Positions 3,519-41,809 of a stretch of 64,000 nt of DNA are shown here, in pieces. Positions within the stretch are counted from its first letter, which is position 1; each line of letters begins with the position of its first letter. The notes beneath the pieces are model-generated. The model did no database searches. It worked only from the letters and a program-made list of their open reading frames with translations, and was not told where the DNA came from. The DNA lies in contig JAQVMW010000001.1 of NCBI GenBank assembly GCA_028703445.1, positions 62,001 to 126,000 of the forward strand, in the 5' to 3' direction. The translations under genes were made by a program, and so were the position numbers. This DNA is from Candidatus Peribacteraceae bacterium (GTDB lineage Bacteria; Patescibacteriota; Gracilibacteria; Peribacterales; Peribacteraceae).

Positions 3519-3607
3519 AAAGTATTCCATGGTATACCGATTGCCTTTCCGTCACGAGCGCGACTTACACGCTCCCCCACCCCTTGCATCCTCTCATGTA
3601 TACAAAC

Positions 3608-3702
3608 CTCTCCCCCTCACCCCCTCTCCATCGGAGAGGGGGAATGTTTTGTTTGTAGTTGTTCTCCCCTTCCTCTGGTGGAGGAAGGGGTCAGGGGATG
3701 GA
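3608..3702. repeat. Paired GC-rich hairpins (REP/BIME-like, nuclease-free copy)
   Basis: Two hairpins lie head to head between the PBP and TypA genes. The left one has CCCCCTCACCCCCTCTCC followed by GGAGAGGGGG. The right one is CCCCTTCCTC pairing with GAGGAAGGGG and then GGGGATGGAG. About 20 nt separate them. The same two hairpins flank the DUF559 cassette inside ribE (14470-14953), so this looks like the non-autonomous version of that unit. Confidence 0.75.
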
Positions 3703-3790
3703 GATTTGGATAAAAATAGGAAAAATCCCGACTTATCGCCTTCCGGAGTATTCCCGCAAGTGCCAAATTCTGGTAAAGTACATGGGATTC

Positions 3791-5587
3791 ATGTCCATCC
3801 GTAACATTGCAATCATCGCGCACGTCGACCACGGCAAAACCACGCTCGTGGATGCACTCCTGAAACAGGGCGGCGCATTCCAGGAGTACGAAGAGGTGGG
3901 CGAACTGATGATGGACTCTAACGCGCAGGAGAAGGAGCGCGGCATTACCATCTACGCCAAGAACACGTCCATCCACTACAAGGAGTGCAAGATCAACATC
4001 GTGGATACACCGGGGCACGCGGACTTCGGCTCCGAGGTGGAGCGGATTCTGCGCACGGTGGACTGTGTGCTGCTCGTCGTGGACGCGCAGGAGGGACCCA
4101 TGCCGCAAACCAAGTTCGTCTTGAAGAAATCGCTTGAACTGGGGCTCAAACCCATTGTCGTCATCAACAAGATCGACAAACCCGCCGCGCGCCCGATGGA
4201 AGTGGTGGACGAGGTCTTCGACCTCTTCATCGCCCTCAAGGCCAATGAGAAGCAGCTCGACTTCCCCTACATCTTTGCCGTGGCGCGCGAAGGTATCGCC
4301 AAGAGAACGCTGGAAGATCGCTCGGAGGACTTAACTCCCCTCTTTGATCTCATCATGGAACACGTGCCGGAAGCGGAACAGAATCTCACGGCTCCGTTCC
4401 GCATGCAGCCAAGCAGCCTTGCCTACGATAACTATCTGGGCCGCATGGCCGTGGGAAGAGTCTATGAGGGAATTGCGCGGCCGGGCAACAAGGTCTTCAT
4501 CAAAACGGCAGATGGATCGGTACGCACGGCAAAGGTGGCGAAAGTCATGGTCGCGGACGGGCTCAAGCGTACCGAGGTGAGCGAAGCGCACGCGGGCGAC
4601 ATCGTGACGATTGCGGGAATCCCCGACATCACCGTGGGCGAGACCATCACCACGGACGAGAACGCCGACCTGCTGCCGGCCATCCAGATCGACCCTCCTA
4701 CGATCTCGATGAACTTTCTCGTGAACAATTCCCCGTTCGCGGGGAAGGAAGGCAAGCTCGTGACCACCCGCCACATCAAGGCACGGCTGGAGAAAGAGAA
4801 AGAGACGAACGTGGGACTCAAAGTGGAAGAAATCCCCAATTCCGATACGTACAAGGTTTCGGGCAGAGGCGAATTGCACCTCTCGGTGCTCATCGAGGCC
4901 ATGCGCCGCGAGGGTTTTGAGTTGCAGGTGTCACAGCCGGAAGTGATTATGAAAGAGGAGAACAGCGTGAAGCTGGAGCCCATCGAGCAGGCGATTATCG
5001 ACGTACCCGAGGAATTCACCGGCACCGTGATCGACATGCTCTCCCGCCGCAAGGGCGAGATGGTGGACATGAAGACGCACGAGCATCACACGCGGCTGGA
5101 GTACAAAGTCCCGACGCGCGGCCTCCTCGGTTTTCGCGGGGACTTCATCATCGAAACGCGTGGCGAGGGCATCCTGACCCACTCCTTCATCGCCTACGAA
5201 CCCTTCAAGGGTGAACTGACGCACAAGTCGCACGGCTCCATGATCTCGATGGAGAACGGCGTGGCGGTGGCCTTCGCGCTGTGGGGGCTGCAGGAACGCG
5301 GACGCCTCTTCATCATTCCGCAGACCAAGGTCTACGTGGGCATGATCATCGGCGAGAGCAACAAATCGGACGAGATGACCGTGAATCCCACCAAAGAAAA
5401 GAAGCTCAGCAACATGCGCGCTTCGGGCACCGACGAGGCGATCAACCTCGTGCCCGTGCAGCCCATGACACTCGAACAGGCACTGGAATACATCGCGGAA
5501 GACGAACTTGTGGAAGTGACGCCCTTGAGTATCCGATTGAGAAAGAAACTGCTGACGGACAACGACCGCCGCCGGGCGCGAAGATAG
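3791..5587 (+). CDS. typA: GTPase TypA/BipA, ribosome-associated
   Basis: Translational GTPase of the EF-G/LepA group that acts in 50S assembly and stress growth. The G domain begins at the chosen start, [18 protein letters not shown], with the P-loop AHVDHGKT, switch [10 protein letters not shown] and NKID. Domains II, III and V and the TypA-specific C-terminal region follow. The protein is 598 aa, normal for the family. The frame is open further upstream, but that stretch encodes the REP-like hairpins and a TAAAGT -10 lies at 3774-3779, so ATG at 3791 is the start. It is a single-gene unit. Confidence 0.95.
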
Positions 5588-5593
5588 GCACTG

Positions 5594-5715
5594 TCATCCT
5601 GAGCACTGCTTGCCGGGCGTAGCCTTGGCGAAGACTGGTCGAAGGATGACCTCGTGTGTTCATGGTTCGACTTAGCCTTCGCTCGCTAGCTTCGGCGGGC
5701 AGGCAGAGCTCACCA
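5594..5715. repeat. Dispersed palindromes of the TCATCCTGAGC type
   Basis: The TypA-SLH gap holds imperfect inverted repeats: TCATCCTGAGC against GGTCGAAGGATGA, then ATGGTTCGACTTAGCC against GAGCTCACCATGA. The same palindrome family recurs at 28060-28125, at about 33651, and inside alaS. Confidence 0.6.
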
Positions 5716-14211: not shown

Positions 14212-15276
14212 TCATGGATTACTCTGTGCAACCAACATTCGGATCAGAATGTCCGTTTCGATATTCACAGAATCGCCCATCCGCTTCGTGCCGAGCGTCG
14301 TGCCCTTGAGCGTCATCGGGATGAGCGCGACGGTGCAGGAATCCACCCCCACGTCGGCAACCGTCAGCGACACTCCATCGAGACAGAGCGAGCCTTTGGG
14401 AACGATCATGCGCCTGAGTTCGGAAGGAATGCGAATCGTCAGACGCACATCGCCTCCGCGCTGATTTTCCTCTCCCCCTGATCCCCTCTCGGGGTTTTCC
14501 TCTCCCCCTAACCCCCTCTCCACAAGAGAGGGGGAACTTGAATGCCTTCTCACAAAAGCATGAATTTTTTCCATAGTGACATGTATGTCACTCTCAACTT
14601 CATCATTTTCCAAACGGAGCGTGATCACTCCGTATTCTTCGCGGAGATACTGGTCTCGCATACTGTCATCATTTTTTTGAAAATGAGTGTGATGAATGCC
14701 CCCATCCAGCTCAATCGCAATTCGATATCGCGGACAGAAGAAATCCAAAATGCGTCCTCCGAGAGGATATTGTCTGCGGAAACGACAACCTAATTGATCA
14801 TCCCGCAAATATGGCCAGAGCAGATCTTCCGCTTTAGGCGGTTGCTTCCGCATATCACGCGCGAAGGAAAGAATGTTTCTTGGTGTTGGAAGCTTTTTCC
14901 ATCTTCGTTCCTTCTCCCCTTCCTCTTGTGGAGGAAGGGGCCGGGGGATGGAGGAAATTCCGATCACCTCTCCTGTTCCTTCGATGTGCCCTTGAACGAC
15001 ATGCCCCTCAAACCGTCCGTGCGCCGGCAGCGCCCGCTCCAGATTGACAAAATCGCCAATCGCCAAATCGCCAATCGTTGTTTTTCGTATCGTCTCCGGC
15101 ATCACGTCGAAGGTGAGTGAGCGCTCATCCATCCCTACCACCGTCAGACACACGCCCGAAACGGCAATGCTCGAACCCGGCTTCACGTCATCAAAGGAAA
15201 CCGGCCGCTCCAGCGTGAGCCTGCCGTCGCCCTGTGCGATGATTTTGGCCGTTGTTTCGATGATTCCGGTGAACAC
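14212..15276 (-). CDS. ribE: Riboflavin synthase alpha chain with in-frame DUF559 nuclease insertion
   Basis: Dismutates two lumazines to riboflavin. The first lumazine-binding barrel (residues 1-107: FTGIIETT, SGVCLTV, FDVMPETIRKTT, GHVVQGHIEGTGEV) and the second (from about 276: VRLTIRIPSELRR, GVSLTVADV, TTLGTKRMGDSVN) are complete. Between them lie about 168 extra residues, so the protein is 354 aa instead of about 200. The insert sits exactly in the loop that opens the second barrel. Start is GTG at 15276, with TACACT 6 nt before it. Confidence 0.93.
   Translation of the reverse strand: MFTGIIETTAKIIAQGDGRLTLERPVSFDDVKPGSSIAVSGVCLTVVGMDERSLTFDVMPETIRKTTIGDLAIGDFVNLERALPAHGRFEGHVVQGHIEGTGEVIGISSIPRPLPPQEEGEKERRWKKLPTPRNILSFARDMRKQPPKAEDLLWPYLRDDQLGCRFRRQYPLGGRILDFFCPRYRIAIELDGGIHHTHFQKNDDSMRDQYLREEYGVITLRLENDEVESDIHVTMEKIHAFVRRHSSSPSLVERGLGGEENPERGSGGEENQRGGDVRLTIRIPSELRRMIVPKGSLCLDGVSLTVADVGVDSCTVALIPMTLKGTTLGTKRMGDSVNIETDILIRMLVAQSNP
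14452..14955 (-). mobile_element. DUF559 nuclease cassette with hairpin ends, inside ribE
   Basis: RibE residues 108-275 are foreign. The core (about 128-243) is a DUF559 domain (VSR/restriction-endonuclease-like fold) with the family residues AEDLLWPYLRD, CRFRRQYPLG, ILDFFCP and IAIELDGGIHH. Both flanks encode GC-rich hairpins: PRPLPPQEEGEKE at one end and SPSLVERGLGGEE, partly duplicated, at the other. The two end hairpins are inverted copies of each other. The same pair without the nuclease lies at 3608-3702. The whole unit keeps the ribE frame open. Confidence 0.8.
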
Positions 15277-15320
15277 AGGAACAGTGTACCGACCGCAACA
15301 TGCGAAGCGCACGCATTTGC

Positions 15321-28059: not shown

Positions 28060-28125
28060 ATGGTGAGCACTGTCGAACCATAGACACACGAAGTCATCCT
28101 TCGACAGAGCTCAGGATGACAACAC
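28060..28125. repeat. Dispersed palindromes, CATGGTGAGC and TCATCCTTCGACAG types
   Basis: Two adjacent hairpins: CATGGTGAGCACTGTCGAACCATA, and GTCATCCTTCGACAG pairing with GAGCTCAGGATGAC. They are the same family as at 5594-5715 and the copy inside alaS. They sit between convergent genes. Confidence 0.7.
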
Positions 28126-28365: not shown

Positions 28366-28435
28366 GTCGATTGGCGATTTGTCGATTGGCGCTATCTCAT
28401 CAAATTTGCCAATCGCCAATTTGAAAATCGCCAAT
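28366..28435. repeat. CGATTGGCGATTT repeat with inverted copies
   Basis: Two direct copies of GTCGATTGGCGATTT-like sequence are followed by two inverted copies (GCCAATCGCCAATTTG). A run of the same unit also encodes residues TIGDLAIGDF in RibE (around 15045-15075). Confidence 0.6.
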
Positions 28436-41659: not shown

Positions 41660-41716
41660 TTCCTGTCTCACCCCCCTGACCTCGTCATCCTGAATGGGCG
41701 TGAAAACAGAAAGAGT

Positions 41717-41770
41717 GCGCCCCTCTCCCGTTGACATGCGGTGCGGGTGAGGAGAGGGGTTGGGGATGAG
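41717..41770. repeat. GC-rich hairpin of the CCCCTCTCC family
   Basis: CCCCTCTCC, a short spacer with GCGGTGCGGGTGAG, then GGAGAGGGGTTGGGG. It is related to the hairpins at 3608-3702 and in ribE, and lies after alaS. Confidence 0.6.
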
Positions 41771-41809
41771 ACAAAGCCAGCAAATGCTGTACTATGATTC
41801 TAATCCTCC

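Follow-up and report, generated by a model that had tools for sequence, protein, structure and literature searches.

A hairpin pair beside typA in Candidatus Peribacteraceae as a putative nuclease-free copy of a REPIN/BIME-like family associated with DUF559 nucleases

The closest described systems are the REPtrons, in which REP, BIME and REPIN sequences are found together with RAYT (TnpA-REP) enzymes (PMC8266576; PMC3733652). In these systems, inverted pairs of tagged hairpins are dispersed and mostly intergenic, the enzyme gene is flanked by the same hairpins, and a large number of pairs is often accompanied by only a few enzyme genes. All of this is shared by the family of hairpin pairs described here, one copy of which lies beside typA in a Candidatus Peribacteraceae genome, within the stretch of 64,000 nucleotides that was analysed as a whole (hereafter the window). 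The family differs from REPtrons in its tag, which is C-rich (CCTC-NCCCC type, CCTCTCCCCCTNA and GGGGGATGGAGG) as opposed to GTAG or CGTC, and in its enzyme, which is a DUF559 nuclease as opposed to a Y1 transposase, with cassettes that are also found in frame within genes. The REPIN criterion of two inverted tagged palindromes in many copies is met by the pairs; that of a RAYT flanked by the same palindromes is not met at the 19 Y1 places. The pairs also meet the criterion for a MITE, being short, non-coding, bounded by terminal inverted repeats and related to a putative autonomous element, but no target-site duplication was found in them, and the partner encodes a DUF559 nuclease, whose mobilising activity is inferred, where the autonomous partner of a MITE encodes a transposase.

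Several other systems resemble the nuclease-bearing form of the family, the DUF559 cassette. One such system is that of I-Bth0305I, which exemplifies the EDxHD homing endonuclease family (PMC3943268) and shares with the cassette its nuclease fold and the reuse of the same sites, but is intron-linked and has extra DNA-binding domains, whereas the cassette has no intron and ends in tagged hairpins. Inteins similarly carry a nuclease in frame in conserved genes at recurring sites; the cassette differs in that no splicing domain was found in it, and its nuclease, on present evidence, remains part of the protein. Pfam searches of the cassette ORFs returned only the host domain and DUF559, with no splicing (Hint) domain, and the linkers are disordered in the model. 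The ShiLan domain of a phage methylase (PMC11855218) is likewise a non-spliced, stop-free insertion with a homing-type nuclease, but its HNH gene is out of frame and it has no hairpin pair, as opposed to the DUF559 domain, which is read in the host frame. In Rickettsia palindromic elements and PARCELs (PMC3733652; PMC2996958), palindromic DNA is also translated in frame within proteins, but the sequences are different and no nuclease is linked to them. LAGLIDADG insertion elements of CPR rRNA genes (PMC11270868) are homing-type, common in Patescibacteria and reuse sites, but they lie in rRNA genes, encode another nuclease and have no hairpin pairs. As for DUF559 itself, VsrA, a DUF559 protein of Caulobacter, is behind the DNA damage of cells that lack a cytosine methyltransferase (PMC12907096), and segments of Legionella DNA that combine a DUF559 gene with a transposase have been flagged, cautiously, as possible recombination hotspots (PMC12308824). 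A link of DUF559 to palindromic repeats was not found in the open-access literature searched; subscription papers and preprints were outside the scope of that search, and priority is not established. Within this scope the family appears to be a kind of mobile element not described before.

The element beside typA (3604-3708, about 100 bp, no strand assigned) was delimited by BLAST, an alignment of copies and a covariance model, and is flanked by a penicillin-binding protein (PBP) gene on the minus strand, starting at 3530, and by typA on the plus strand, starting at 3791, both genes being identified by Pfam. Read in order, it consists of AAACCTCTCCCCCTCACCCCCTCTCCATCGGAGAGGGGG, a spacer and CTCCCCTTCCTCTGGTGGAGGAAGGGGTCAGGGGATGGAGATTTG. 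Its left half (3606-3644, plus strand) comprises the tag CCTCTCCCCCTCA and the hairpin CCCCCTCTCC/GGAGAGGGGG, whose stem (3620-3629/3633-3642) is paired at 10 of 10 positions, and its right half (3662-3703, plus strand), which is inverted with respect to the left, comprises the hairpin CCCCTTCCTC/GAGGAAGGGG, also paired at 10/10 bp (3666-3675/3681-3690), and the tag TCAGGGGATGGAG. Both halves are conserved in 14 copies. The tags at the outer ends are inverted copies of each other, and in the consensus structure of the 14 copies an outer helix of 11 pairs encloses both hairpins. When folded as single-stranded DNA, the pair reaches -24.5 kcal/mol, as opposed to -15.8 (sd 2.9) for shuffled sequences (z = -3.1); the stems of the aligned copies are too invariant for covariation to give proof of the structure.

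An initial annotation, made from sequence alone, had placed two hairpins at 3608-3702 between the PBP gene and typA, about 20 nt apart and in the same order and orientation as the hairpins around a DUF559 cassette in ribE. These claims held: both hairpins were located, with perfect stems, their order and orientation are identical to those at the ribE cassette, and the left (3607-3644) and right (3662-3703) halves show 89% and 93% identity to 14499-14536 and 14912-14953 at the sides of that cassette. The distance was essentially confirmed, as the gap between the halves measures 17 nt at the typA site versus about 375 nt in ribE. We read this stretch as a nuclease-free, non-autonomous copy of a mobile, REPIN/BIME-like family of hairpin pairs whose cognate enzyme is a DUF559 nuclease, and give this reading a probability of roughly 0.6. 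It is shown that the unit is paired and has defined ends, that its copies are dispersed and vary in presence, that its ends are like those of DUF559 cassettes and that DUF559 genes in general are associated with ends of this kind. The mobility of the hairpin-pair family is supported, whereas its mobilisation by DUF559 is inferred, with no experiment showing that DUF559 cuts the hairpins.

In the 1.37-Mb genome from which the window was taken (G000), BLAST with a 113-bp query matched 14 other places (E 2.8e-32 to 9.8e-13), most of them full-length, and partial copies were matched as well. In the full copies both hairpins are preserved, as are their order, the spacing (about 91-122 bp overall) and the ends, and pair copies differ from one another by several sequence changes. 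The covariance model gave 15 places at or above 85 bits and about 29 distinct places in all in G000, matches on both strands being merged by hand, and found matches in 25 of 39 related genomes. Such a number of dispersed copies with constant pairing of the two halves is more than chance. A genome-wide count of single, paired and nuclease-containing copies, proposed as a check in the initial annotation, showed that all three occur in G000, as degraded singles, nuclease-free pairs and nuclease cassettes, and that the pairing of the halves is constant. Since the nuclease-free pairs share a spacer of their own, they were amplified as nuclease-free units, as opposed to each being an independent deletion of a cassette. 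A third related hairpin, annotated at 41717-41770, also held, as the sole hairpin (41720-41759; stem 41720-41728/41751-41759) surviving within a degraded related element (41664-41773, no strand assigned), which is bounded by 12-nt terminal inverted repeats of its own, TGTCTCACCCCC/GGGGATGAGACA, at 41664-41675 and 41762-41773.

Other repeats were seen in the same genome. A further family of hairpin pairs, about 155 bp long and with CCTCACCCCCTCTCCCCCTCTCCA as its ends, is present in about 10 copies (for example C3:46600-46757, C11:165315-165470 and C12:75683-75839); its tags resemble the tags of L035 and L037, two free-standing nucleases. Within the window, a 34-nt inverted pair of the GTCGAAGGATGAC type lies at 5638-5671 and 28072-28105, and short repeats of the CGCCAATCG type lie at 15048-15077 and 28368-28430, one of them inside ribE.

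The ribE gene of the window (riboflavin synthase, 14212-15312, minus strand) is an ORF of 366 aa with the cassette between its two lumazine-binding domains. The DUF559 nuclease domain (14551-14874, minus strand; PF04480 at G000:C11:76551-76874) was identified by Pfam, alignment and a structure model, lies in frame and has conserved catalytic-type residues. At its sides are a half-element of the same type as the left half of the typA-side pair (14499-14536, plus strand) and one of the same type as the right half (14912-14953, plus strand), and on the outer side of the cassette there is a partial extra copy of the left type, consisting of tag and half-stem (14465-14490, plus strand). Such tandem partial units are found at one end of several cassettes (L131, L134, L141 and the one just described); they look like stepwise extension of the ends and may be traces of the process. 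In a model of RibE with the cassette, of modest quality (mean pLDDT 72, pTM 0.38), the RibE halves and a separate nuclease domain are seen together with two linkers of low confidence, and it is these linkers that the tags and hairpins encode. Other short extra sequences, with no nuclease, were seen in the RibE inter-domain loop of L085 (G033) and L095 (G032), and this loop therefore seems open to insertions generally.

A profile of 15 intragenic nucleases matched the DUF559 protein 3hrl (E 1.8e-25) and the I-Bth0305I catalytic domain 3r3p (E 0.003), and the best folds for a model of the domain (pLDDT 92) include 3hrl, 3r3p and Vsr, with I-Bth0305I at Foldseek rank 2-4. The assignment of the cassette nuclease to the Vsr/I-Bth0305I fold rests on this profile and this model. 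Invariant residues in the nuclease alignment are E21, D49, E60, D62, H66 and D75, and in a comparison with the EDxHD motif E21, D49, H66 and D75 are invariant, yet not all of them align to I-Bth0305I residues. The nuclease is under purifying selection, as dN/dS is 0.03-0.16 in the eight pairs with usable dS.

DUF559 was found in 43 of 57 genomes of this Peregrinibacteria family, and nearly all of the nine matches in G000 are flanked on either side by tagged hairpins wherever the contig extends far enough. For 100 distinct nucleases, the reverse-complemented upstream flank was aligned to the downstream flank, with the 99th percentile of control stretches as the threshold. Inverted hairpins on both sides accompany about 85% of the roughly 100 DUF559 genes (control 1%); the threshold was exceeded by 83% of free-standing and 88% of intragenic genes, and by 29% of flanks taken from different loci. 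Most of the signal comes from the hairpin together with a C-rich tag that is unpaired and abuts the stem on its outer side. Twenty-five distinct nucleases lie inside ORFs of 346-929 aa, the others in ORFs of 87-248 aa. RibE is the host in 13 genomes, always at one linker position between its two domains, and the other hosts, by Pfam, are RsmG (three times), a Mur ligase (twice), a group-4 glycosyltransferase (twice), RibD, a TsaD-family protein, Sua5/YrdC and an F420 ligase, together with one protein without identification. The Mur ligases we take to be MurD, by a C-terminal motif, and the TsaD-family host to be TsaB-like. Repeated insertions into one gene share the same position, which is before ILDLGTGGGFP in RsmG, before the C-terminal LLSP motif in MurD and between PNG and GCVARL in the glycosyltransferase, as well as the linker in RibE.

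In a nuclease tree, the intragenic nucleases and one free one form a single clade (SH-aLRT 97), in which the host labels switch repeatedly: RibE needs nine changes, at least two of them forced by well-supported branches, and sister nucleases occur in RibE and RsmG of G078 (98) and in a glycosyltransferase and a MurD (97). This clade has moved between host genes, but the number of moves is uncertain, since with only 117 alignment columns many forks are unresolved. For G006 and G067, which belong to the same genus and both have a RibE cassette, dS is 1.76 for the nuclease (95% from 1.02 upwards) versus 0.35-0.36 (up to 0.58) for the RibE halves, as would be expected if a diverged copy had replaced the earlier one or had invaded the same site anew, although this contrast rests on one genome pair and a simple method (NG86).

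G006 has one PF04480 match, in RibE, versus at least 28 distinct nuclease-free pair places (strands merged by hand), and almost all of 21 pair copies from this genome belong to two sharply defined sub-families, which have shared spacers and the ends CCTC...GAGGA. The pair ends of G006 match its own cassette better than any other, as do those of G000 and G013; this best match within the own genome fails in G007, G017 and G020. As a match to the pair ends, free-standing cassettes score well below intragenic ones in every genome but G017, where they come close (46 vs 49). In G017, pair matches number about 15 over both strands, and two of the DUF559 cassettes are intragenic. Pairs are also present in G001, G002 and G010, in which no intact intragenic cassette was seen; this, like the failed match in G007, G017 and G020, counts against the reading given above.

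Evidence for mobility comes from orthologous sites, the initial annotation having asked for polymorphic presence and target-site duplications. In the congeners G001, G002 and G003 the order of the PBP gene and typA is kept, as is the promoter region of typA, but the pair is absent; the exact junction is unreadable because the surrounding intergenic DNA has diverged. The ribE gene is uninterrupted in G001-G004, and at another pair copy (L012) G002 joins both flanks without the element. At a further copy (L003) the intergenic DNA has diverged and the comparison gave no clear reading. One pair site is common to G000 (L007) and G003 (L249), with matching flanks in both genomes, and this pair is therefore inherited. 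The presence of the pair varies within the genus, and the earlier claim of mobility of the whole family is supported by the copies and their presence or absence among congeners. Target-site duplication was not detectable: direct repeats at the ends of G000 pairs are no longer than in mismatched flanks, which counts against a classical cut-and-paste transposon. This result rests on G000, as some G006 right ends were misplaced in that analysis. A TGTGCA motif is found on one side of G000 pairs in 6 of 26 flanks (background 5%); it was picked post hoc and is a lead only. In G006 pair copies L254-L272, the flanks directly outside the ends (15-30 nt per side) are T/G-rich on the left and A/C-rich on the right (81% and 87% over the first 15 nt), are low-complexity and differ from copy to copy.

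In the mechanism that we infer, the DUF559 enzyme would recognise the tagged hairpins and/or a target and then cut DNA, and repair of the break would copy the element into the cut site, so that nuclease-bearing and nuclease-free copies may spread both in cis and in trans. Inside genes, the only survivors would be in-frame insertions in loops and linkers, predicted to be tolerable because the tag-hairpin DNA would be translated into a flexible linker, rich in Pro, Gly and Glu, that surrounds a nuclease domain able to fold by itself. The earlier proposal that the pair is a non-autonomous (MITE/BIME) derivative of the DUF559 unit is in this sense supported; which form came first is not shown, and the role of DUF559 is inferred.

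An alternative is that a RAYT or another Y1 transposase moves the pairs in trans as REPINs, with DUF559 as a separate homing gene that lands in them. In its favour, the architecture of the pairs is that of REPINs, 11 of the 13 genomes tested carry Y1 (RAYT/IS200) genes, and in one case a tag is located at a distance of 459 bp from such a gene, the tag pattern being otherwise absent near Y1 genes. Against it, the flanks of the 19 Y1 places carry different palindromes (for example CCAGCGCACGAAGCTTCGTGCGCTGG), Y1 genes are lacking from G017 and G004, of which G017 nonetheless has its pair matches, and the pairs resemble the ends of DUF559 cassettes; we consider this explanation unlikely. Less likely still is that the pairs are old repeats without present mobility, both they and the cassettes having been spread by an enzyme since lost, with DUF559 kept for a different role, for example repair or defence. 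The several changes between pair copies, the action of the Caulobacter protein in DNA damage (PMC12907096) and the pair site common to two species would agree with this, but the variable presence among congeners, the sharp, near-uniform G006 copies and the recent copies of one nuclease in two G078 genes speak against it.

It could also be argued that these are ordinary terminators or regulatory hairpins that are alike through G+C-rich composition, and the stems are indeed strong and G+C-rich. This explanation is all but excluded, as neither stem is followed by a T run, a unit with the same two different halves recurs at many unrelated sites, and congeners that share the gene order lack the pair. 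A terminator at 3604-3708 was rejected on the basis of the divergent genes and the empty sites in congeners; the PBP gene and typA both point away from the element, and there is therefore nothing to terminate. The finding that would have refuted the initial annotation, unrelated terminators without constant pairing, was accordingly not met, the pairing being constant and the flanking genes divergent.

Returning to the preferred reading of a hairpin-pair family with a DUF559 enzyme, a bolder version can be put forward, which we regard as about as likely as not: DUF559 nucleases would be the enzymes of a bacteria-wide REP-like class, built of C-rich tagged hairpins in inverted pairs and independent of the RAYT REPtrons that it parallels, which spreads as nuclease-free pairs and as in-frame cassettes in essential genes, with the palindromes translated as linkers. 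A scan of named genomes, which used a 4-sequence alignment because a 15-sequence one was too varied, gave 28 loci outside Peregrinibacteria (Bacteroidota, Proteobacteria, Chloroflexi, Campylobacterota, Myxococcales and others). Flanking inverted repeats exceed every same-locus control stretch in 16 of the 26 testable loci, and Saprospiraceae ends such as TTTAACCCATCCCCGACCCTTCCCTTTGAAAGGGAAGGGAG have the same plan as the Peregrinibacteria cassette ends. In-frame association was seen with HemD (Bacteroidota), guanylate kinase (Bacteroidaceae), an amidohydrolase (Cyclobacteriaceae) and restriction-modification genes (Helicobacter, Campylobacter and Chloroflexi). Since this sample was drawn with intragenic-type queries, its rates cannot be generalised.

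If true, this would assign a role to part of DUF559, which is very common but whose function is unknown, and would offer a likely enzyme for a class of palindromic repeats for which none is known. It would also explain palindrome-encoded Pro/Gly-rich peptides within unrelated bacterial proteins, and would mean that a nuclease can reside in essential enzymes without splicing. The spread of transposase-less palindromic repeats would become a testable question, with a named nuclease, ends and empty sites. As a separate observation, a Y1 (IS200/RAYT-type) domain was seen in frame inside leucyl-tRNA synthetase, before the editing domain, in three genera (L277 in G003, L278 in G006 and L293 in G034), a second case of a mobile-element enzyme within an essential gene.
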